From a virus: DNA of 44,896 bases. The notes below the pieces were generated by a model, which was given only the letters and a program-made list of their open reading frames with translations, was not told where the DNA came from and ran no database searches. Location of the stretch: positions 1 to 44,896 of IMG/VR virus record IMGVR_UViG_3300009481_000022; one strand, 5' to 3'. Both the position numbers and the translations under genes were made by a program. Of this stretch, positions 913-19,865 are shown in pieces; the first letter of the stretch is position 1, and each line of letters opens with the position of its first letter.

Positions 913-2104
913 AACATTTTGCCCGTTGCCGTGGAAACATTTAGCAACACACCCTCATGGAAGATTAAGTTTGTGTTGTGAAGCCGATACCACAATGAAA
1001 ACAGCATTTACAACTGATTTTGGTTTCAATAGAACTCTACAAAATACACAATATAATTATGACACTATAATGAATAGTTCGTCTTTTCGTAATGTAAGAT
1101 TACAGATGTTAAATGGAGAGTATCCACAAGAATGTAAAAGATGTTGGAACTCAGAATCGGTAGGAAACAAAAGCAAAAGAATAATAGAATTAGAAAGACA
1201 TAACTTTACAGAAGAACAAGCAATACAATGTACAGATATAACAGATGGTAGAATAAAAGATATAAGTTTTGAATTTATAGAATTAAGATTAGGTAACCAT
1301 TGTAATTTAATTTGTAGAACATGTAATCCTATTTCTAGTACTCGTTGGAGAAAAGAGTGGCAAAAATTAGGTTTGGAGGCAGGATACAATGCAATACCAC
1401 AACAAGAAATGGATTGGCCTTTAGATCAAGATTTTTGGGATAGTCTACTTTCACATGTAAATGAATTAAGATTTTTATATATTAATGGTGGCGAGCCTTT
1501 ACTTATAGACAAGCATGGTAAGTTTTTAAAAGAACTAATTAATTTAGATATAGCAAAAAATGTTACTATTGTTTATTCTACAAACTCAACGGTATCGGGT
1601 GAGGATTATGAGGATATCTGGAAAGAATTTTATAAAGTAGAAACAATGTTATCTATAGACGATATAGAAGGTAGAAATGAATATATGAGATACCCTTCGA
1701 AGTGGGACAATACAATAAAACAATATGAATGGTTTAAAGAGTTAGGTGAAAGACATGATAACATTAATACAACAATATGTCAGACAGTTTCTATATTGAA
1801 CATATATTATCTAAGTGAATTCTACGAATACTTTAATGGTACACAAATATCCTGCAACTTTGTTACTAATCCTATGTATTACGATCCTGCAATATTACCA
1901 CAGGACATAAAAGATACAATTATTAATAAATACAAAGGGGAAGTATTCTACGATACCATAAAAAATTATTTAGGTATAGAAAACAAAGGTAGAACATTAC
2001 TTCAATTTTTTGATGTTACTAACAGACAAGATGTATTAAGGAAAGAATCTTATAAAGAAACATTTTCTGAATTTTATGATTTGATAAAAGAATATGACAG
2101 ATAA
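902..2104 (+). CDS. Radical SAM protein with N-terminal twitch/SPASM-like cluster
   Basis: 400 residues from the ATG at 902. This start was chosen over an in-frame ATG at 878 because it gives an 11-nt overlap with the upstream stop and has a GAGG sequence about 10 nt before it. The N-terminus FCPLPWKHL carries C7, C25-C26 and a C78xxC81 pair, a typical auxiliary Fe-S (twitch/SPASM-like) domain, here placed before the radical SAM core. The core has CNLICRTC at 134-141 and GGEP at 196-199. It is a paralogue of both flanking genes. Substrate unknown; neighbouring SDR and 2OG oxygenase genes suggest a multi-step tailoring pathway. Confidence 0.86.
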   Translation: MTSKTFCPLPWKHLATHPHGRLSLCCEADTTMKTAFTTDFGFNRTLQNTQYNYDTIMNSSSFRNVRLQMLNGEYPQECKRCWNSESVGNKSKRIIELERHNFTEEQAIQCTDITDGRIKDISFEFIELRLGNHCNLICRTCNPISSTRWRKEWQKLGLEAGYNAIPQQEMDWPLDQDFWDSLLSHVNELRFLYINGGEPLLIDKHGKFLKELINLDIAKNVTIVYSTNSTVSGEDYEDIWKEFYKVETMLSIDDIEGRNEYMRYPSKWDNTIKQYEWFKELGERHDNINTTICQTVSILNIYYLSEFYEYFNGTQISCNFVTNPMYYDPAILPQDIKDTIINKYKGEVFYDTIKNYLGIENKGRTLLQFFDVTNRQDVLRKESYKETFSEFYDLIKEYDR

Positions 2105-3467
2105 TTTAACACAAGACGAAATAGATATTGGCATACGAGCTGAAGATAAAGGTGGCGATGAAAATATACCTTTACTTGATACAACTAAGTGTGCATTACC
2201 TTTAATACATTTACATACTTGGCCTAACAAAAATGTTTTTGCTTGTTGTTTGGGTGGTTACGATACTAAAATAGGTTCCTTAGAAGAAGGTACACTACAA
2301 GAAATATTTAACAACGATATGATGAAAGACATACGAAAGAAAATGTTAAATAACGAAAGACCAAGAGAATGTACTAACTGTTTTAAGGAAGAAGATACCG
2401 GAGGATTTTCATTTAGAAAAACTGCTAATAGAGATTTCAAACATCATTTAGATAAATGGGACGATGTTAAGGAAGACGGCACACTAGAGAAAATGGACTT
2501 AGCATATTGGGACTTTCGTTTTTCAAATGTATGTAGTTTTTCTTGTCGTAGCTGTGGTCCTCAGTTAAGTTCGGGTTGGTATAAAGATACTAAAAAGATG
2601 TATGGTAGTTTGAATTTTGAAGACAACTTTAATCTTATAAAAGAAAGAACAATAGAAGTATGGGATCAACTAGAACCTCACTTCGATACAGTAGAAAGAA
2701 TATACTTTGCAGGTGGTGAACCTTTAATGATGGAGGAGCATTATAGAATACTAAAAAGATTAATAAAGATGGAAAGAAGCGAGGTTGTGTTAATATATAA
2801 TACAAACTTAAGCACATTAAATCTTAAGAAGGATAGTGTATTAGATTTGTGGCCACAGTTTGACCGTGTTGTTATAGAAGCAAGTTTAGATGGTAGTGGT
2901 GAGAGAGGAGAGTTTGTTCGTAAAGGTTTAGTGTGGGATGAATGGAAGGAAAATAGAAAACAAATTGAAAAGGCATGTCCTAATATAGAGTTTAATATTA
3001 ACTATACAATAAGCATACAAAATGTTTTACATGTAAGAGAATGTATGGAAGAATTAATAGACATAAAAGCAATTAATAGTCCTCACAATTTTAGATTTAA
3101 TCTAGTACACCACCCTGTATGGTTAAATGTTATTATGTTGCCAGATCATATGAAACAAACAATAAAAGATTATATGGAAGAATGGAAATTGGATATAAAC
3201 AAAGACTATCCTAGATTAGCTAGAGGCTCTATAACAGCGGCTATAAATTCTTTCTTAGAGTATATGTTTTCTGAGAAAGGAAATCCTAAAATGATACAAC
3301 TATTCTGTAGACAAATGGAGATGATAGATTCTGTAAGAGATGAATGTTGGCAAGAAGCAATACCAGAAATGGCTTGCTTAGATCCTTTATGGAAAGGGGT
3401 AAGAAAAGAATTAAATACATTAGCATTAAGATATGAAACCGGGAGATTATTAGGCTATGAAAAATAA
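2094..3467 (+). CDS. Radical SAM protein with N-terminal twitch/SPASM-like cluster
   Basis: 457 residues, the longest complete paralogue of the tandem trio. C33, C51-C52, C93 and C96 form the N-terminal cluster domain (KCALPLIHLH ... FACCLGG ... RECTNC). The radical SAM core has CSFSCRSC at 147-154 and GGEP at 207-210, then SLDGSGERGEFVRKG, which resembles the first gene. The start overlaps the previous stop by 11 nt, as at the previous junction, implying translational coupling. Divergence among the three cores suggests distinct substrates or consecutive steps rather than redundancy, but that is inference. Confidence 0.86.
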   Translation: MTDNLTQDEIDIGIRAEDKGGDENIPLLDTTKCALPLIHLHTWPNKNVFACCLGGYDTKIGSLEEGTLQEIFNNDMMKDIRKKMLNNERPRECTNCFKEEDTGGFSFRKTANRDFKHHLDKWDDVKEDGTLEKMDLAYWDFRFSNVCSFSCRSCGPQLSSGWYKDTKKMYGSLNFEDNFNLIKERTIEVWDQLEPHFDTVERIYFAGGEPLMMEEHYRILKRLIKMERSEVVLIYNTNLSTLNLKKDSVLDLWPQFDRVVIEASLDGSGERGEFVRKGLVWDEWKENRKQIEKACPNIEFNINYTISIQNVLHVRECMEELIDIKAINSPHNFRFNLVHHPVWLNVIMLPDHMKQTIKDYMEEWKLDINKDYPRLARGSITAAINSFLEYMFSEKGNPKMIQLFCRQMEMIDSVRDECWQEAIPEMACLDPLWKGVRKELNTLALRYETGRLLGYEK

Positions 3468-5235: not shown

Positions 5236-5976
5236 ATGGCTAGAAGAAATCTTCAACTAGTTCAAGACAACAAACAAAAAGGCAGGCGCTCGACGCCACT
5301 AAAAATACAACCAAACGATCTATTCAGATTTGATCCAATTACAGACACTCAATCCTTATTTTGGCAAAAGTACAAAAAGAAAGATGCATTACTCTTACAC
5401 GGCTCTGCTGGTACAGGTAAAACATTTATTGCTTTATATAAGGCTATGGAAGATGTAATTAACAAAGGAGGCCCATACAATAAATTAATTATTATACGAA
5501 GTGCAGTACCCTCCCGAGAAATAGGACACTTGCCTGGTGACTATGGAGAAAAGATAGATGTTTATTCCATACCATATCAAAATATGATGGACGAACTCTT
5601 TCCTCAAAAAGAGAAACCATATGACAGACTGATGGAGCAAAAGAAATTATACTTTATGTGCACCTCGTTTGTTAGAGGTATTACATTAGATAATGCAATC
5701 ATACTTGTTGATGAATGTCAGAATATGAACGACATGGAAATTAACAGTATTATGACAAGAGTAGGACATCAATCTAAAATTATATTTTCTGGAGACTTTA
5801 GACAAACAGACTTATATAAGAACAATGATAAATCAGGACTTAAGAAGTTTATACAAATAGCGGAGAATATGCCGTCATTTGATACAATAGAGTTTGGTCC
5901 TGAGGATATTGTTCGTTCAGAATTAGTCAAAGAGTACATATTAGCAAGGGTAAATTACGAAGAAAAATACGAATAA
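5236..5976 (+). CDS. phoH: PhoH-like P-loop ATPase
   Basis: 246 residues with Walker A GSAGTGKT (56-63), the RSAVPSREIGHLPGD motif typical of PhoH, Walker B IILVDECQN, and SGDFRQTDL near the end. PhoH proteins are ATPases linked to RNA metabolism and phosphate stress in bacteria. They are a common auxiliary gene in marine phages, where the function is still debated. The start has a good Shine-Dalgarno (AGGAG, 5222-5226) after a 59-nt gap. The stop is followed 4 nt later by an early-type promoter, so the next gene has its own transcription start. Confidence 0.95.
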   Translation: MARRNLQLVQDNKQKGRRSTPLKIQPNDLFRFDPITDTQSLFWQKYKKKDALLLHGSAGTGKTFIALYKAMEDVINKGGPYNKLIIIRSAVPSREIGHLPGDYGEKIDVYSIPYQNMMDELFPQKEKPYDRLMEQKKLYFMCTSFVRGITLDNAIILVDECQNMNDMEINSIMTRVGHQSKIIFSGDFRQTDLYKNNDKSGLKKFIQIAENMPSFDTIEFGPEDIVRSELVKEYILARVNYEEKYE

Positions 5977-9476: not shown

Positions 9477-10352
9477 ATGTTAACGGATATACCACATGTG
9501 ATAGTTACAGGCGGTTGTGGTTTTATAGGATCACACCTTACGAAACATCTATTGACGCAAGGTTTTTGTGTTACGGTTGTTGATGACAACAGAACAGGAA
9601 ATGTATTTCACAGTCATGACAGCGTAGAGTATCATAAATGTGATGTTGTAGATTTCAACCCACACAAAAATTCTATAGAACCACCTTCCGCCATTTTTCA
9701 TTTAGCAAACAGCCCTCGAGTAAGGAGGGCTTTGGAATATCCTACAGAAACGATTGTAAACAATATAGGAACAACATGTGCAGTAGCAGATTGGGCTAGA
9801 ATATTTAATTGTAAATTATTCTTTTCTACATCTTCTAGTACACAATATGCAGAGTCTTTAAACAATCCTTATACATTTAGCAAGGTTGTTTGTGAGTCTG
9901 CTCTAAGCATGTACAGAGAATTGTATAGTTTAGATTATGTTTTAATGTATTTCTATAATGTATATGGACCTGGCGAGGCAGACTATGGGCAATACAGCAC
10001 AGTCATTAGAAAGTTTAAACAGGATTATTTGGCAGGAAACCCTTTAACAATATATGGCAAAGGAGATAAAGAGCGTGATTTTACACATATAGATGATGTA
10101 ATACAAGGAATGTTACAACTTACAGCAGATCCTACTAGCCCTTCTATTGCACATTTTGGAAGTGGTAGTCCTAGATCAATAGCATCAATAGCAGATTGTT
10201 TTAAGCATCCCGTTGTACATTCATTTGACAGAAAAGGAGAGGCACAGAGAACACATTGTGAACTTCCTTATATAGAACCCACGCACGATGTACACGAATA
10301 TATAAAGAACTGGGTTCAGGAGAATAAAAGTGGAACCAAAACTAATAATTGA
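9477..10352 (+). CDS. NAD-dependent epimerase/dehydratase
   Basis: 291 residues of the extended SDR family: VTGGCGFIGSHL dinucleotide loop near residue 10, FHLANSPRV, the STSSSTQY serine region, YTFSK as catalytic YxxxK, YNVYGPG, and ERDFTHIDDV. These match UDP-glucose 4-epimerase-like nucleotide-sugar enzymes. It probably makes a nucleotide sugar for the glycosyltransferase two genes downstream. The start has no Shine-Dalgarno and coincides with the predicted +1 of the promoter at 9442. The 3' end overlaps the gp33 gene by 23 nt. Confidence 0.88.
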   Translation: MLTDIPHVIVTGGCGFIGSHLTKHLLTQGFCVTVVDDNRTGNVFHSHDSVEYHKCDVVDFNPHKNSIEPPSAIFHLANSPRVRRALEYPTETIVNNIGTTCAVADWARIFNCKLFFSTSSSTQYAESLNNPYTFSKVVCESALSMYRELYSLDYVLMYFYNVYGPGEADYGQYSTVIRKFKQDYLAGNPLTIYGKGDKERDFTHIDDVIQGMLQLTADPTSPSIAHFGSGSPRSIASIADCFKHPVVHSFDRKGEAQRTHCELPYIEPTHDVHEYIKNWVQENKSGTKTNN

Positions 10353-10629
10353 TAATACAATAAAGATGACAGAAGAAAAAATAAGTGACATATTTTTAGT
10401 AACAAAAGAGTTTCATACCTCTACAGAGTTTTCTCAGTTTATTGAAAAGATGGCTTTTAATACACAATCACCCTGCATGGATATTGTTGTAGATTATTGT
10501 ATAAAAAAGGAAATTGAAATAGAAAGTATATCTAAATTTTTAACAGCTTCTTTAAAGTCTAAGATAAAAGAAGAAGCATTAGACTTAAACTTACTAAAAG
10601 AAAAGAGAAAAAATAAGTTACCATTGTGA
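10330..10629 (+). CDS. gp33: Late-transcription coactivator gp33
   Basis: 99 residues. The pattern FSQFIEKM ... CMDIVVDYCIKKEIEIESISKFLTASLKSKIKEEALDLNLL matches the gp33 family. gp33 bridges the sliding clamp and host RNA polymerase carrying gp55, activating transcription at TATAAATA promoters. The GTG start at 10330 has AGGAGA 7 nt upstream; an alternative ATG lies at 10366. Gene order gp33-gp59-gp32 follows T4, interrupted here by a glycosyltransferase. The presence of many TATAAATA boxes in the window is consistent. Confidence 0.8.
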   Translation: MEPKLIIDNTIKMTEEKISDIFLVTKEFHTSTEFSQFIEKMAFNTQSPCMDIVVDYCIKKEIEIESISKFLTASLKSKIKEEALDLNLLKEKRKNKLPL

Positions 10630-11615
10630 AAATTTTTGTATCAATAGCATCATATCAAGATCCTATACTTAAATATACAATTAAATCTATTACAGAGAAT
10701 GCTAAGTATAAGAACGATTTAGTATTAGGAGTATTTGATCAAGCCGAGGAGACTCTCACAGACTTACCTAGTAATGTAAGATATAAATCCTGTCACCCTA
10801 AAGAAGCTAAAGGTTGTTGTTGGGCAAGAAGTACAATACAAGAAGAATTATTTGAGGGAGAAGATATCTTTATGCAAATAGATTCACATACATTATTTGC
10901 TGAGGATTGGGATAAAAATTTATTACAAAAATATGAGGATTGTAAAAATTGGTTTGAGAAACCTTTAATAACAGGATATCCTAGAGGTTTTGATGTTATT
11001 GTAAAAGGACAAGGATTTTTTAATTCAGACGAAGAGTATATTTTTAAGAAAACAGACAAGAATACAAATACTCATATTATGACAATTCATTTACCTTTTA
11101 ATGATGGATATCATTCAGGACAAATAGCAAAAGGAATGAATGACAGTAAGTATTATAGGGGTTTTGGTTTATCAGCAGGACTTATATTTACAGAAGGAAA
11201 CTTTGTAAAAGAGGTTCCTTACGACCCTAGAATTTATTTTGGTGGAGAGGAAACAACATTAGCAGTAAGAGCTTTTACACATGGTTATGAATTAGTTCAT
11301 GTTCCTGATACACCTTTATGGCATTGGTATAATAGTGATAACCAAGAATTAAAAAGAGAATTGCATTGGAACATGCACGAACAAGACGAAGAGTTAAAAA
11401 AAGCAAAAGACGATTATATTGCATCTGCTAAGAAAGTAGTTGACAATGTATTACAAGGCAAAGATACTTTATATGGTTTAGGAGATAAAAGAACATTAAA
11501 AGACTTTGCAGGACTAAGTGGTTTAGATTATACGAACAAATCTGTACAGATGGATAAATGTTTATTCAAAGAATATGAAGAAGCAGGTTTTACATTAGAT
11601 GATGATTTTGAATGA
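10626..11615 (+). CDS. GlcNAc-transferase-like glycosyltransferase
   Basis: 329 residues, GTG start overlapping the gp33 stop by 4 nt. IFVSIASYQDPIL at the N-terminus, then GCCWARSTIQEELFEGEDIFMQIDSHTLF with a D86-S-H metal motif, and YFGGEETTLAVRAFTHGYEL, match the GlcNAc (Skp1-type, GT60-related) family. It probably transfers a sugar from a nucleotide donor to a protein or glycan, possibly using the product of the epimerase just upstream. Placement between gp33 and gp59 is an insertion in an otherwise T4-like order. Confidence 0.82.
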   Translation: MKIFVSIASYQDPILKYTIKSITENAKYKNDLVLGVFDQAEETLTDLPSNVRYKSCHPKEAKGCCWARSTIQEELFEGEDIFMQIDSHTLFAEDWDKNLLQKYEDCKNWFEKPLITGYPRGFDVIVKGQGFFNSDEEYIFKKTDKNTNTHIMTIHLPFNDGYHSGQIAKGMNDSKYYRGFGLSAGLIFTEGNFVKEVPYDPRIYFGGEETTLAVRAFTHGYELVHVPDTPLWHWYNSDNQELKRELHWNMHEQDEELKKAKDDYIASAKKVVDNVLQGKDTLYGLGDKRTLKDFAGLSGLDYTNKSVQMDKCLFKEYEEAGFTLDDDFE

Positions 11616-14012: not shown

Positions 14013-14783
14013 ATGTTTGATATACCTATATACCACAAATCAGATATAGCAAAAGAGTTATTACCTCATCTACAAACAGAGGTTCAAGCAGAATACGATA
14101 GAAGAGAATTTTACGAAAAAGCAAATCCTGAAATGGGAAGTCATTATAGAAAACTTTCTGTATATGATGAGAAAGGAGAACATGCATCTGTTACACTTTC
14201 AGACCCTATGGTAAATATAACTCATTACCCAGAATTACAAAAAATAATACATACACACGCAATAGAATATTTAAACAGTTTAACTTCATTTCCTTTTGCA
14301 GATATGTTGGAAATGAATTGGAATCATTATTCTTGGTGGTCCTGTTTTGACGGAGGAGATAGTTATTCATGGCACAATCATAGTCAGTTCTTTCTTATAG
14401 CAACTTACTATTTAGAGTGTGATGAAGAACATACACCTATAGCATTTAGAAATCCTATAGGAAATTTGTTAGAAGCATGGTTACCAGGCAAAATGACGGG
14501 TATAGATACAGAGGTTGTTATAAAACCTAAAACAGGAGATTTAATGATTTGGCCAGCATGGTTAGAACATTATGTATATAACAAAACTTTGTGGCAACTA
14601 GAACAACAAAACGATCCTAATTTAACTACACATAGAGGTGGTAATTGGAATAAGATTGTTGCAGGACATAATCCTAAAAATTCTAGTTACGAGTCTATAA
14701 GAAAAAGTATTACTATAAACTATATGAAACCAGCAGAATTGTTTGGTTGGCATATTAAAAGAACGGGAAACAATAATGAATAG
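14013..14783 (+). CDS. 2OG-Fe(II) oxygenase, PF13759-like
   Basis: 256 residues. WHNHSQFFLIATYYLE supplies H121/H123, GDLMIWPAWLEHYVY supplies H186, and RKSITINYM supplies R230, the layout of the putative 2OG-Fe(II) oxygenase family common in cyanophages. Start 2 nt after the desaturase stop, so the two are probably cotranscribed. Substrate unknown. It is unrelated in detail to the oxygenase at 3981, so this phage carries several distinct versions. Confidence 0.8.
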   Translation: MFDIPIYHKSDIAKELLPHLQTEVQAEYDRREFYEKANPEMGSHYRKLSVYDEKGEHASVTLSDPMVNITHYPELQKIIHTHAIEYLNSLTSFPFADMLEMNWNHYSWWSCFDGGDSYSWHNHSQFFLIATYYLECDEEHTPIAFRNPIGNLLEAWLPGKMTGIDTEVVIKPKTGDLMIWPAWLEHYVYNKTLWQLEQQNDPNLTTHRGGNWNKIVAGHNPKNSSYESIRKSITINYMKPAELFGWHIKRTGNNNE

Positions 14784-15222
14784 AGAAGAAGTTTACGAAC
14801 AACTAAAAATAGATGAAGGAGTAGTCTATGCAATCTACAACGATCACCTCGGGTATCCCACCTTTGGAGTCGGTCACCTTATCAAGGAGAGTGACACGGA
14901 ACATGGAAGGCCAGTTGGAACTCCAATTGACGAAGAAAGAGTTAGGTCGTGTTTCGAACAAGACCTTGACATTGCCATTGGAGAGTGTTCAGCTTTATAC
15001 GGAGAGAGGGAATTTGGAGAACTACCCGATCCAGTCCAGCAAATCTTGGTTAATATGATGTTTAACATGGGACGAACTAGACTATCTAAGTTTAAAAAAA
15101 TGAACGCAGCTATAGCAGAAGGAGATTGGAAAACTGCAGCTGTTGAAGGTAGGGATAGTCGTTGGTATAACCAAGTTAGAAATAGAGCTGAAAGATTGAT
15201 GAAAAGATTGGAAGTAGTTTAG
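14776..15222 (+). CDS. T4-type lysozyme (GH24)
   Basis: 148 residues. The N-terminus LKIDEGVVYAIYNDHLGYPT carries E14, D23 and T29 with the same spacing as T4 lysozyme E11/D20/T26, followed by FGVGHL. It hydrolyses the peptidoglycan glycan backbone. There is no signal peptide. In T4 one such domain sits inside baseplate gp5; the gp5 of this phage lacks it, so this free enzyme may be the tail-associated or the lytic enzyme. It overlaps the oxygenase gene by 8 nt. The stop converges with the minus-strand tape-measure-like gene, overlapping by 4 nt. Confidence 0.92.
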   Translation: MNREEVYEQLKIDEGVVYAIYNDHLGYPTFGVGHLIKESDTEHGRPVGTPIDEERVRSCFEQDLDIAIGECSALYGEREFGELPDPVQQILVNMMFNMGRTRLSKFKKMNAAIAEGDWKTAAVEGRDSRWYNQVRNRAERLMKRLEVV

Positions 15223-18128
15223 ACCATTCGTCTATCATAATACCTTTCAATGGTACTATAATTATTTCTCACGCCTGGTGAGCCTATAGCAACTGCTACT
15301 TTACTGTCTGCTTTAGGAGCTGCCGGTGCTTGTGTAGTATTGTTTACTACAACGGGAGCGCTAGAATCCATAGTATCTGCCTCTTTACCTAAACGAGTCA
15401 TGTTATCCACAGCTTGTCCTGTGGGCGATACACTTGATTCAATACTGCCACGGGGCGAGTTGGGGTGGACTGCATCCCATGTTCTCCGAGATATCTCTTC
15501 CTCACTAAGTCCTGTATCCTTTAGAATTTGAGCGTGCTCTTTCATAAATTCTTCATCATTCTCTGCAGCCAGTGGATTGAATATATTGTATCTTTGGTTC
15601 ATTCCGCCTTCCATTGTCGCTCTATCCATTTCTGATACTTCTGTTCCAAATGGACCTTGGAAAGTTTCGTTGTTAAACACTGCTGCCGAGGCTGATGTAC
15701 CTTCAAAGTCAAGGTCAGTTCTGTCTACTCCTCCTATTGCTTGAATTTCTCCTTCATTATTCATTAACGCTTTTACAATGGCAGCATTTTTAATAGCGGC
15801 TTTATCATTATCTGATATATCTTCTCCCGCTTCTTTCAATAGTTTATCTTCTATCTGTTTAGCTTCTTGTTTAATTTTGCCTGCAAGAGCGCTATCTTTA
15901 TCTTCAATTTGTCTCATTGCTGTATCAGCTTGTGCGTTTGACTCTTCTAACTCACTTGCACTAACTGGAATAGCATCTGCTATTTTACCACCAGCTTTCT
16001 TGCCTAACCAACTACCACCAAAGTAACCAATAGCTCCACCAATTAATCCACCAATTGCTGTTCCTACAACAGGAACAACAGAGCCAATTGCTGCACCAGC
16101 AGCTGCTCCTGCTATAGCTCCTCCTGCTCCACCTGTACCTTCACCTATTGCCTCACCTTTTGCTACTTGTTCTTCTTCAGCTGTTAATTGTCCGGCATCA
16201 GCCATTGCCTCAGCTTCTCTACTTCCAGATACTGCTGTATAAATCCCAGCCCCTACACCAGCTACAGCTGCTAATGGGCCTCCAAATCTAGCTGCGCCTT
16301 TAAGTAATCCTTTTGCTCCTCTAGCAAATCTTCCACCTTTACCTTTACCTTTACCTTTATTCTTACCGCCTCCGCCAACGGGTGGAAACATTCCTCCACC
16401 GCCTCCGCCACCGCCTGATGCAGTTTGTTCTAACTGTTCTAATATTTTTTGTAATGTTTCTTCTGTTGCTGGTTTGTCAGAATCTTTAGATGTACCCGAT
16501 CTTCCAGATACTAATTTTTCTCTTTTACTTTGTTTTCCTGCTGCTCCTGTACCAGCTGCTTCAAGTGTTTCAGATGCTTGAGCTACACTTTCTCCTGATG
16601 TACCATCTATTTGAACAACATCTCCTCCAGGTGTTCCTATACCGTATTGTTCGCTCCATTCTTTTTTCTTCTTATCTTCCCAAGTTTCTTTAGGATCGCC
16701 TGTAAGACCTAATCCTTCATCTCCTTGCATACGCTCCATTGCGTCTTTTTGACTTTCAATTTCAAACCCTTGTTGTACATTTTCTTGGAATTGTAGTCTG
16801 CCTTGTAGTCCTTCTACATTAGCTAATTTTCCTGTGCCTGCTTTACCGAAGAATCTATCGGCTCCAAATGCCTCACCCAATCCTTTCTTAGATAAAATAT
16901 CTGTTCCTGCATTTATACCTAAGAAATTTGTTTTAATTCCTGTTCCTAAATTTTTAAGAAATCCACCTTGTGATTTATCTGCTACAGAATCCAGGCCTAA
17001 TTTACCTGCTAGTTCTTCACCACCTGTCTTTTTTAATTTTTCAATTTTTTCCATTACATCTTTTTTAGTGCCTTTGCCTGTTTGCATGGCTGAAAAAGCT
17101 GCTGTTAATTCTGATAAACTTCCTTGTGCTGCCTCATTATTGTCTAATGCTTTTTGTACTTCTGCTGCGTTATATCCTATGTTTTTAGAAAGTTCTGCTG
17201 CTCCCTCAGAGGCTCTAAATTGGGAACCAGATCTTGTTGTACCCACTAACCCTTGTGATATTCTAACATCTTCTGCTAACGCTTTAACAGGGTCTGTGGC
17301 TGTAAATTTGTTTGTATCGGCGTCTCTGAATTTGGCAGTTCCTGTTGTATAATCTCCAGCTCTTTTAATATTTTTACCACCAATTCTTAATTGTTCACCT
17401 TCTTTAAATGTAAGCATTCCGCCTTCATTCTTCCATTGTCCACTTAATTCGTCACCTGTTATTTTTTGTTTGTTTAAACTTTTGTCAGTAGTTTTTACAT
17501 TCTTACCCAAATCATGAATGTCTGTTACATTCCTTTCTCTCTTTAATGCAGCCTGATCTCTATCATATTGTGCTGCGTAGTCGGCGTCTGACATGCCATA
17601 TCCAGAACGCTTATCTTTTGTATCAAGTTTTTTACCTGATCCTGATATTGTAGTTTTATCTGCAGTCTTTTTAATTTGTTCACTATCTGCTGCTAGTTTA
17701 GAATCTGTTTGTGCGCTTGCTGATTGTGTATCGGATACTGTTTTTTGTATATTATCTAACCCGTCCAGTTTTTTCATTATCTGTTGGTTTTGTTCTAATA
17801 TAAGTTCTCGAGCTACTTTTGCACCCGTGTTATGTTTCCTTTGCTTTTTATTATCATCTATAAGTTGCTTCTCAACAGCTGCAGTCTTAGCTCTGTCCTT
17901 CCTTTCAACATTAAACATAATGACTTCTTTAGCAATTTGAAGTGCATTAGCTTTTTTGTTAGATTGGGCGTCGTCTTTTAATTGAGATGTATCAGCAGCA
18001 GTATCGTCGTGTCTTTCATGTAGAGCTTGTTCCAGCTCTTTCATTTCCGAAGACTGAGCTATATCCGACTCTTTCGGATCTAACTCTTTCATCTTTGCTA
18101 ATATTTCTTCTATCTTTTTATCGGACAT
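15219..18128 (-). CDS. Tail tape-measure-like structural protein
   Basis: 969 residues. A charged, coiled-coil-like N-terminal half is followed by a Gly/Lys-rich linker near 573-599 (GGGGGGG, NKGKGKGKGG). Hydrophobic Gly/Ala-rich segments follow near 613-634 and 673-706 (GSVVPVVGTAIGGLIGG). Long helical regions with membrane-like stretches are usual for tape-measure proteins. It starts 2 nt after the end of the gp26-gp51 frameshift product, the position tape-measure genes hold behind tail chaperones. At about 1.5 angstrom per residue a full-length helix would span roughly 145 nm, an upper bound. No clear similarity to T4 gp29 was seen by eye. Confidence 0.55.
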   Translation of the reverse strand: MSDKKIEEILAKMKELDPKESDIAQSSEMKELEQALHERHDDTAADTSQLKDDAQSNKKANALQIAKEVIMFNVERKDRAKTAAVEKQLIDDNKKQRKHNTGAKVARELILEQNQQIMKKLDGLDNIQKTVSDTQSASAQTDSKLAADSEQIKKTADKTTISGSGKKLDTKDKRSGYGMSDADYAAQYDRDQAALKRERNVTDIHDLGKNVKTTDKSLNKQKITGDELSGQWKNEGGMLTFKEGEQLRIGGKNIKRAGDYTTGTAKFRDADTNKFTATDPVKALAEDVRISQGLVGTTRSGSQFRASEGAAELSKNIGYNAAEVQKALDNNEAAQGSLSELTAAFSAMQTGKGTKKDVMEKIEKLKKTGGEELAGKLGLDSVADKSQGGFLKNLGTGIKTNFLGINAGTDILSKKGLGEAFGADRFFGKAGTGKLANVEGLQGRLQFQENVQQGFEIESQKDAMERMQGDEGLGLTGDPKETWEDKKKKEWSEQYGIGTPGGDVVQIDGTSGESVAQASETLEAAGTGAAGKQSKREKLVSGRSGTSKDSDKPATEETLQKILEQLEQTASGGGGGGGGMFPPVGGGGKNKGKGKGKGGRFARGAKGLLKGAARFGGPLAAVAGVGAGIYTAVSGSREAEAMADAGQLTAEEEQVAKGEAIGEGTGGAGGAIAGAAAGAAIGSVVPVVGTAIGGLIGGAIGYFGGSWLGKKAGGKIADAIPVSASELEESNAQADTAMRQIEDKDSALAGKIKQEAKQIEDKLLKEAGEDISDNDKAAIKNAAIVKALMNNEGEIQAIGGVDRTDLDFEGTSASAAVFNNETFQGPFGTEVSEMDRATMEGGMNQRYNIFNPLAAENDEEFMKEHAQILKDTGLSEEEISRRTWDAVHPNSPRGSIESSVSPTGQAVDNMTRLGKEADTMDSSAPVVVNNTTQAPAAPKADSKVAVAIGSPGVRNNYSTIERYYDRRMV

Positions 18129-18130
18129 TT

Positions 18131-18328
18131 TTAATATTTCCTTGTTTCTGCTCTTTCTTTAGCCTTCTCAGCTTTCTGTTTCAGATGTAGAATTAGCATA
18201 TTGACATAAACTTCCCTTTCCCAAGGCATCATGTTTTCTAGCTCTGTCAGACTATATTGATGCTCTTGCATTAACAAAAAGTTAGTCTTGTAATAGTTTC
18301 CAAGACTCTCCTGAGAAAGGATTAGGCG
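18131..18328 (-). CDS. gp51: gp51-like extension of gp26, predicted -1 frameshift
   Basis: The -1 frame is open from the slippery site and adds 65 residues, RLILSQESLGNYYKTNFLLM then QEHQYSLTELENMMPWEREV and a Lys/Glu-rich helix ending RKY. The NYYKTNFLLMQEHQYSLTELENMMPWERE core resembles baseplate-hub assembly protein gp51 of marine T4-like phages. No ATG, GTG or TTG precedes NYYKTNF in this frame; an internal ATG at 18271 would cut off that part and lacks a Shine-Dalgarno. A fusion of 294 residues with gp26 is therefore the simplest way to express it. Confidence 0.68.
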   Translation of the reverse strand, partial: RLILSQESLGNYYKTNFLLMQEHQYSLTELENMMPWEREVYVNMLILHLKQKAEKAKERAETRKY

Positions 18329-19014
18329 AAAAAATGTTCGTACCCATTGATATTAATTATTTGTTCTGCCTCACAATGTGGACATTTATAATCAATATTA
18401 TGTGATAGAATAGGTATCGCTCTAAGAAATTCTCTCATTTCACCAAATGATTCTACAGGAAGATTTTCTACAAACTCTTGTAGCTCTTCTCTTGTAACAT
18501 CATTAATACTAACTTCTTCCTCTTCTGTTATGATAGATTCTATACAGTTAGCAATAGTATCAATATCTGACTGTTTATCCTCAGCTACTACATCAAGAGC
18601 ACGAGGATATCTCATTTTAATAACAAACTCTTCTCCTACTTTGACTTCATTGTCAGGTAAGGAGTCTAAACCTTTGACTGTTAAGTCTTTAAGTTCCATC
18701 TCATATTTTGTGGATTTTTTACATTCTCCACAAACAAGATTGAACTCTTGTGTGCTTCCTATTGAAGCCTCTCGAATTCTTATGAATAAGTCTTGCATAT
18801 CAAACATAGCTAATTTAGTAGCATCGAGTTTATCGAATGTACAATTTTCTATAATTTGTCCACAAGCATTAATCATGTCTTTGAATTCTTCACTTTCACT
18901 AGCCAACATAAGAATCTTTTCTTCCTTTACAAGAAAGGGTCTGAACTTTACAGTCTCTCCTGTAGATGGAACAGTAGTCTCAAATATTGGTGTTTCTACT
19001 TTAGGTAATGACAT
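18322..19014 (-). CDS. gp26: Baseplate hub/tail assembly protein gp26
   Basis: 230 residues. The start MSLPKVETPIFETTVPSTG with FRPFLVKEEKILMLA is characteristic of the T4 baseplate gp26 family. CGECKK (near 125) and CPHCEAEQ near the C-terminus form a likely four-cysteine zinc site. GGAG lies 9 nt before the ATG. The gene ends in a slippery heptamer, so a fraction should continue into the gp51-like extension. Position directly before the tape-measure-like gene suggests that gp26 and gp26-51 act as tail-assembly chaperone partners, as lambda gpG and gpGT do. Confidence 0.85.
   Translation of the reverse strand: MSLPKVETPIFETTVPSTGETVKFRPFLVKEEKILMLASESEEFKDMINACGQIIENCTFDKLDATKLAMFDMQDLFIRIREASIGSTQEFNLVCGECKKSTKYEMELKDLTVKGLDSLPDNEVKVGEEFVIKMRYPRALDVVAEDKQSDIDTIANCIESIITEEEEVSINDVTREELQEFVENLPVESFGEMREFLRAIPILSHNIDYKCPHCEAEQIININGYEHFFA
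18328..18334 (-). other. Slippery heptamer T TTT TTC in gp26
   Basis: On the minus strand gp26 ends CAT TTT TTC GCC TAA, so T TTT TTC is in exact X XXY YYZ phase, two codons before the stop. A 7-bp hairpin (AGTCTTG/CAAGACT, 18301-18307 with 18284-18290) lies 20 nt downstream, further than the usual 5-9 nt. Confidence 0.68.
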
Positions 19015-19028
19015 ATTTTATCTCCAAA

Positions 19029-19865
19029 TTAATCATCAGAATTAAACGCAGGCAAGTAATCGCCACCGGTTCTAGTAAGCTCTCTATCAAGACCTGTTAT
19101 AACTTCTTGAACATTGTTAGGATCTTGTGAGTAATGGCCTTTTTTACTTGGCACGAAGGAAACTTTTCCATCTCCATCTTTCTCCAATTTACCCGAATTC
19201 ACTCCTGTGTTGTTCTCTTTGTATCCGTTACTAAGAACCATTTTAGCTTCCATATCACTTTTGTAAGGTCCATAAACTTCTGAAGAGTCCCAATACGCTG
19301 ATGATATTATTAATGTATTTCTAACAGCACTTACAGTTCCACTAGACAGAGGTACCAAGTTAATTACTTTAGGCATAGCCTCATATAGAGTCCATTGTTT
19401 TTTAACATTGTCCTGTACATCTAATGCTTTAATAATTATTTCTGTTGTTACACTATCGGGATAACCTATTTCTTGGCTGACAGTATCAGCACAAGCGTTT
19501 ACCCAATGTTCAAAGAAACTTCTCAAGAACCAATCTTGATCTGTAAGAAATGTAAAGTTAATTTCGTTTCCTAGGAAACCTACTTTTGTGTTTCTAAAGA
19601 AAGTCCAAGGACCTACATTATATTCTTTGTTACTTAATATCATACCAGGTATTTGTACTTCTTCACAAAATAGACAAACATCGGTTGTAAGATTTTTAAC
19701 ACCATCGGCAAATTGCCAGTTCTTAAGATCTTCATTTGCTCCGGGGCCTTCAATTAATTTACCAATATTGAATTCTACTTCAAATCTTTCTGCACGGGCA
19801 AAGGTTCTTTGTTTAAGTTCCTCTCTATACCGTTTAAAGGTTCCCCATGATTTTCCTTGAGCCAC
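19029..19865 (-). CDS. gp54: Tail-tube initiator, gp54-like (gp19 fold)
   Basis: 278 residues with a GTG start (GGAG upstream). SWGTFKRYREELKQRTFARAERFEVEF, then LFCEEVQIPGM, YNVGPWTFFRNTKV and TFLTDQDWFLRSFFEHWVNAC match the gp54/gp19 tail-tube fold. gp54 sits on the baseplate hub and starts tube polymerisation, next to gp48. It begins one base before the stop of the preceding gene is cleared, so it is coupled. gp19 itself is an alternative, but the neighbouring baseplate genes favour gp54. Confidence 0.78.
   Translation of the reverse strand: MAQGKSWGTFKRYREELKQRTFARAERFEVEFNIGKLIEGPGANEDLKNWQFADGVKNLTTDVCLFCEEVQIPGMILSNKEYNVGPWTFFRNTKVGFLGNEINFTFLTDQDWFLRSFFEHWVNACADTVSQEIGYPDSVTTEIIIKALDVQDNVKKQWTLYEAMPKVINLVPLSSGTVSAVRNTLIISSAYWDSSEVYGPYKSDMEAKMVLSNGYKENNTGVNSGKLEKDGDGKVSFVPSKKGHYSQDPNNVQEVITGLDRELTRTGGDYLPAFNSDD

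Follow-up and report, generated by a model that had tools for sequence, protein, structure and literature searches.

The gene 26 junction and its surroundings

The DNA analysed here (the window) is a 44,896-base IMG/VR virus fragment in which a gene of the T4_baseplate family, gene 26, is encoded on the minus strand (Table 1). Its 3′ end reads GGG TAC GAA CAT TTT TTC GCC TAA, which places a T TTT TTC heptamer (18328–18334) in exact X XXY YYZ phase within gp26, one sense codon ahead of the stop; the same spacing is found in 116 of 144 relatives. The gp26 protein matches PF12322 with E=4.5e-58 (196.9 bits vs a curated cut-off of 24.5) and phrog_150 with E=8.7e-59. The −1 frame stays open for 65 codons past the slip and terminates 2 nt before the ATG (18128) of an open reading frame (ORF) of 969 aa; the predicted frameshift product comprises 294 aa. 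The extension matches phrog_634, ‘baseplate hub assembly catalyst’, with E=3.1e-25, and it also matches positions 234–276 of phrog_150, directly past the part occupied by gp26. An earlier note on this DNA had pointed to the in-phase heptamer, the 65-codon open frame ending 2 nt before the next gene, the gp51-like sequence in the extension and the lack of a start codon in its first part, and all of these are borne out by the sequence and coordinates; the first in-frame start-like codon of the extension is a TTG at 18277. The hairpin that it described (AGTCTTG...CAAGACT) likewise lies exactly 20 nt 3′ of the heptamer.

Table 1. Features at the gene 26 junction and in its neighbours (window coordinates)
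Feature	Positions	Strand	Basis
gp26 (T4_baseplate family), short form, 230 aa	18322..19014	-	PF12322, phrog_150, AF2
Slippery heptamer T TTT TTC in gp26 reading phase	18328..18334	-	read directly
gp26 zero-frame stop TAA, one sense codon past heptamer	18322..18324	-	
-1-frame extension (gp51 domain), 65 codons past slip	18134..18328	-	phrog_634, conserved alignments, AF2
Stop codon TAA of -1 frame	18131..18133	-	
GGG at -11 to -9 of heptamer, weak Shine-Dalgarno (SD)-like site	18343..18345	-	conserved position in relatives
Possible stimulatory hairpin, 7-bp stem, -7.3 kcal/mol, spacer 20 nt	18284..18307	-	
969-aa protein, candidate tape measure	15219..18128	-	position; Gly/Ala-rich hydrophobic segment; partial tape-measure PHROG matches
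Tail-tube-like protein (gp54/gp19-like), just upstream of gp26	19029..19865	-	phrog_45 tail tube, E=2.7e-19

Among ORFs of at least 100 aa in the window, gp26 alone combines such a heptamer in its last 60 nt with a −1 frame that runs on for over 20 codons. Because it is the sole such ORF, and because the same layout recurs in all 150 of the junctions described below, the slip site is not a chance occurrence.

The 969-aa protein is probably the tape measure. In 87 complete relatives the corresponding large downstream gene encodes 430–1139 aa (median 608), with a strongly hydrophobic segment in every case, and one depositor labels the HTVC008M counterpart a putative tape measure. A search of these 87 complete downstream proteins with a hidden Markov model (HMM) of T4 gp29 gave no credible match. 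Many relatives (L001 1716–2045, L180 5897–6229 and about 30 panel loci) have a small ORF of about 83–173 aa, often about 107, that separates the large gene from the extension. An EF-hand-like ADTNGDGKV motif is encoded by this ORF in Melnitz and HTVC008M; the window lacks the ORF.

Elsewhere in the window, three consecutive radical-SAM-like genes on the plus strand (16–912, 878–2104 and 2094–3467) are followed by a PhoH gene (5236–5976) and, further along, by genes for a nucleotide-sugar epimerase (9477–10352) and a glycosyltransferase (10626–11615). A fatty acid desaturase gene (PF00487, 13231–14010) adjoins a 2OG-Fe(II) oxygenase gene (PF13759, 14013–14783), also on the plus strand, in this T4-like phage, and a phage lysozyme gene (14743–15222) comes after the pair.

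Conservation of the slip site among relatives

The earlier note had asked whether the heptamer and the frame relation are conserved across marine T4-like phages. A panel of 150 distinct gp26/gp51 junctions was assembled from two IMG/VR scans and from named phages; 144 of these are non-redundant. The panel is diverse, with 119 clusters when grouped at 70% protein identity and 55 when grouped at 50%. All 150 junctions have the −1 relation, an open −1 frame and an in-phase T TTT TTN. The last base of the heptamer in the 144 non-redundant loci is C in 94, T in 40, A in eight and G in two. The codon ahead of the Phe-Phe pair is AGT, AAT, GAT, TCT, CAT, GCT or GGT, and thus ends in T in all 150 junctions, against a background of 37.6% NNT codons in gp26. 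Other Phe-Phe pairs in gp26 are written T TTT TTN in only 4 of 123 cases, and the in-phase heptamer occurs elsewhere in gp26 at 19 of 32,872 codons. Judged by these counts, the heptamer is kept at the nucleotide level beyond the constraint of the amino acids it encodes. Named relatives with T TTT TTC/T/G at the same place include Kyanoviridae cyanophages, the pelagiphage Mosig, Melnitz, phiM9 (Pootjesviridae), Aeromonas phage PX29, a KVP40-like vibriophage, phiAS5, Mendera, Variovorax phage V45v66 and HTVC008M. The panel sequences are not independent events, yet in this sampling the pattern covers several virus families.

The sequences flanking the heptamer were also compared. G is found at −11 in 143 of the 144 loci and at −10 in 142, and the energy of the SD-like duplex upstream of the slip averages −5.94 in the panel vs −4.86 in synonymous resamples (none of 100 as low) and −1.50 at control positions. 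The element is weak in this phage (−3.7 vs the panel mean of −5.9). Just past the slip, the predicted RNA structure lies 2.95 kcal/mol below synonymous controls, compared with −0.5 to −1.0 in control regions; the excess also holds against dinucleotide controls and falls to about zero beyond 60 nt. No covariation was detected in the panel at the column pairs of the downstream hairpin, so that no single conserved stem can be claimed, and a hairpin at a fixed conserved position is ruled out by this result together with the lineage-specific registers. The earlier note had regarded the hairpin 20 nt downstream as a weak point; such hairpins are common in relatives, and the structure is real in aggregate, although its register is not fixed. 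The conservation of the internal SD-like sequence and the excess of downstream RNA structure suggest that both may act as stimulators.

A separate start for the gp51 domain was sought in the same loci. Residues 1–18 of the extension have a mean modal conservation of 0.65, vs 0.49 in the body of gp26. The commonest first ATG is at residue 19 and lacks a Shine-Dalgarno site. Mean anti-SD duplex energies are +0.43 for internal gp51 ATGs, −5.41 for gp26 starts and −3.41 for the next gene, and 2 of 188 candidate internal starts have an SD energy of −5 or below. According to the earlier note, a frameshift would be contradicted if gp51 in relatives had its own conserved start and the slippery site were missing; no such case was found among the close relatives. 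Several database records leave the extension unannotated and others annotate separate gp51 genes with varied starts; the joined product is annotated in none of the records inspected.

In Ackermannviridae the −1 extension is conserved and the T TTT TTN heptamer is lost: the junction reads GAA ATT TTC ATT TAA in Salmonella phage Marshall (L177, 4495–5480) and CAG GTT TTC ATC TGA in Serratia phage phiMAM1 (L179, 1495–2420). The gp51 domain is unannotated in both phages, and there is no start codon near the junction. The Ackermannviridae-like VP-1 and the related K475 have TAATG, with the ATG overlapping the gp26 stop, and to judge from this arrangement the gp51 domain may be translated independently in at least one branch, that of the VP-1/K475 type. 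The record of Stenotrophomonas phage IME-SM1 (L012, about 2216–2221) has five T where the near-identical Mendera (L176) has six, and gp26 runs on in that record owing to the missing T. IME-SM1 looked at first like a +1/−2 variant, a reading rejected because the additional T is present in Mendera, together with the standard −1 site; the short run probably reflects either a genuine indel or an error in sequencing the homopolymer.

These data bear on three explanations other than ribosomal frameshifting. The gp51 domain could be a separate protein, with ribosomes re-initiating, or initiating in a coupled manner, at a non-AUG or internal start just past the gp26 stop, the poly-T being incidental, as the varied gp51 starts chosen by depositors and the TAATG of VP-1 and K475 would allow. 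However, the first 18 codons of the extension contain no ATG in 102 of the 144 loci and no ATG, GTG or TTG in 63, the internal ATGs lack SD sites, an invariant heptamer preceded by varied codons that all end in T is left unexplained, and gp51 of the T4 type is itself a gp26-like domain fused to the extension; we therefore consider a separate gp51 very improbable in the panel at large. Nearly the same low probability, if anything a shade lower, attaches to slippage by RNA polymerase, which would add or drop a U on the T run. A run of six T is short for polymerase slippage, and six is the length in 104 of the 144 loci; the run reaches seven or eight in the other 40, but the X XXY YYZ phase and the upstream SD-like element fit slippage by the ribosome. 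An error of sequencing or assembly that joined two frames has a negligible probability: homopolymer differences do occur, as between IME-SM1 and Mendera, but the same out-of-frame layout in 150 distinct junctions from many assemblies refutes it. A programmed −1 frameshift at the gp26/gp51 junction is, on this comparative sequence evidence, very likely.

gp26 and gp51 of the T4 lineage

In T2, RB49, KaAlpha and CF1, gp51 is encoded on the strand opposite to gp26, and gp26 of T2 and RB49 ends without a slippery site. Residues 1–201 of T2 gp51 match PF12322, and the protein spans positions 13–280 of the 282 in phrog_150, whereas T2 gp26 spans only 14–235. An HMM built from the predicted gp26-51 fusions, with T4-type sequences left out, aligns with RB49 gp51 over profile positions 22–290 (E=5e-20) and with T2 gp51 over 22–279 (E=1.6e-15), both in a 4-sequence database and each as a single domain across the slip junction. 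By sequence, T4-type gp51 is homologous to the predicted gp26-51 product, and colinear with it, over its full length; the short form has its counterpart in T4-type gp26. The earlier note had stated that T4 encodes gp26 and gp51 separately. There are indeed two genes, but gp51 is not merely a detached domain: it has its own gp26-like N-terminal domain joined to the extension and can be described as a hard-wired long form. Pfam and PHROGs already imply that gp26 and gp51 belong to the same family; what is new is to read gp51 as the longer member of a frameshift pair.

When the shared domain is placed in an unrooted tree, the gp26 and gp51 sequences of the T4 type group in a single clade (99/97), apart from 24 others; four Straboviridae phages that have the slip site are among those 24. 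Because the two proteins group together, the T4 lineage apparently swapped frameshifting for gene duplication, most economically by a duplication within that lineage; the direction of this change is inferred, the tree being unrooted.

A predicted pair of short and long chaperones

An AF2 model of gp26 has a pLDDT of 91.9 and matches the viral hub-chaperone family, and a model of the extension consists of three helices (pLDDT 87.8). Searches of gp26 against the PDB gave neither a sequence nor a fold match, and the extension has no match in Pfam; its PDB sequence matches were rejected as chance coiled-coil matches. No homology to the known G/GT tail assembly chaperones was thus found in sequence or fold and, as no match to a solved tail chaperone turned up, the comparison with G/GT is one of analogy.

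As an analogy, the likeness to lambda G/GT drawn in the earlier note survives, though not as common descent as far as tested. A short and a frameshift-extended form are encoded just before the large gene taken to specify the tape measure. In lambda gpG/gpGT (and in P2 E/E+E′ and similar systems) a small gene that lies before the tape-measure gene likewise has a −1 slip close to its 3′ end, which yields a minority, C-terminally extended form, and the products aid assembly. The present system differs in belonging to large contractile phages of the T4 superfamily, in its gp26/gp51 hub chaperones, in the T TTT TTN heptamer with an SD-like element upstream, and in a T4 branch that appears to use gene duplication instead. 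The −1 frameshift of E. coli dnaX combines a slippery heptamer with an internal SD sequence upstream and a stem downstream. The candidate signals here have a similar layout; the gene is unrelated, and the frameshift product is the shorter form there and, as predicted, the longer one here.

We propose that most ribosomes would terminate after gp26, and that a minority would slip back by one base on T TTT TTN, with tRNA-Phe in both sites, and read on through the gp51 domain to give gp26-51. The internal SD-like sequence, about 8–10 nt upstream, and lineage-specific downstream RNA structure would probably raise the slip rate. The two products would then form a chaperone pair for assembly of the tail or baseplate hub, comparable to lambda G and GT, in which the long form would be the scarcer; the tape measure is probably encoded by the large gene that follows. 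T2, RB49, Karamvirus and Moonvirus, of the T4 lineage, have two genes on opposite strands, and there the paralogues gp26 and gp51 would supply the short and the long form, respectively. Taken as a whole, a programmed −1 frameshift conserved across the wider T4 superfamily where gene 26 ends, producing a G/GT-like pair with paralogues in the T4 lineage, is in our estimation highly probable. The sequences show the layout, its conservation, the missing signals for a separate start and the match of T4-type gp51 to the entire fusion; the slippage and how often it occurs, the action as chaperones and the assignment of the tape measure are predicted. No prior report of a gp26/gp51 frameshift was found in the open literature searched, a scope outside which most subscription papers fall.

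The frameshift could be real and both forms nonetheless be baseplate-hub proteins with no part in chaperoning the tape measure, so that the likeness to G/GT would extend only to the coding trick. In T4, gp26 and gp51 are known to be chaperones for assembly of the hub, gp51 being essential, absent from the final particle and ‘of unknown function’ (PMC3004832), which suits a role confined to the hub, as do the lack of any fold or sequence tie to G/GT proteins and the presence of genes 27 and 28 between 51 and 29 in T4-type phages. Against this, in the frameshifting phages the pair adjoins the large tape-measure-like gene, or is separated from it by one or a few small ORFs, as in G/GT phages, and T4 gp29 is both a hub component and the tape measure (PMC3004832). 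We hold the hub-only alternative to be unlikely, and a G/GT-like role of gp26 and gp26-51, argued by analogy, to be likely.

Atkins et al. (2016, PMC5009743) describe wide conservation of G-T frameshifting among long-tailed phages ‘except T4’. Two forms made from duplicated genes would explain why T4 seems an exception among tailed phages. We find it reasonably probable that a two-form tail chaperone is general to the T4 superfamily, with the T TTT TTN frameshift as its ancestral or prevailing encoding and T4 gp26/gp51 as a replacement by duplication; gp51 would then be a hard-wired ‘GT’ with the role of the long-form chaperone, and T4 would be exceptional only in how the pair is encoded. If the frameshift reading is right, the gp51 gene calls in many phage records are the end of a fusion protein, and the reading points to a tape-measure gene missed in a survey of pelagimyophages, where none was identified (PMC7029224). 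It would also give gp51 a testable role, and abundant marine myophages, with much of the T4 superfamily, would fall under the same short/long rule: one pair of forms with two encodings, by frameshift and by gene duplication.
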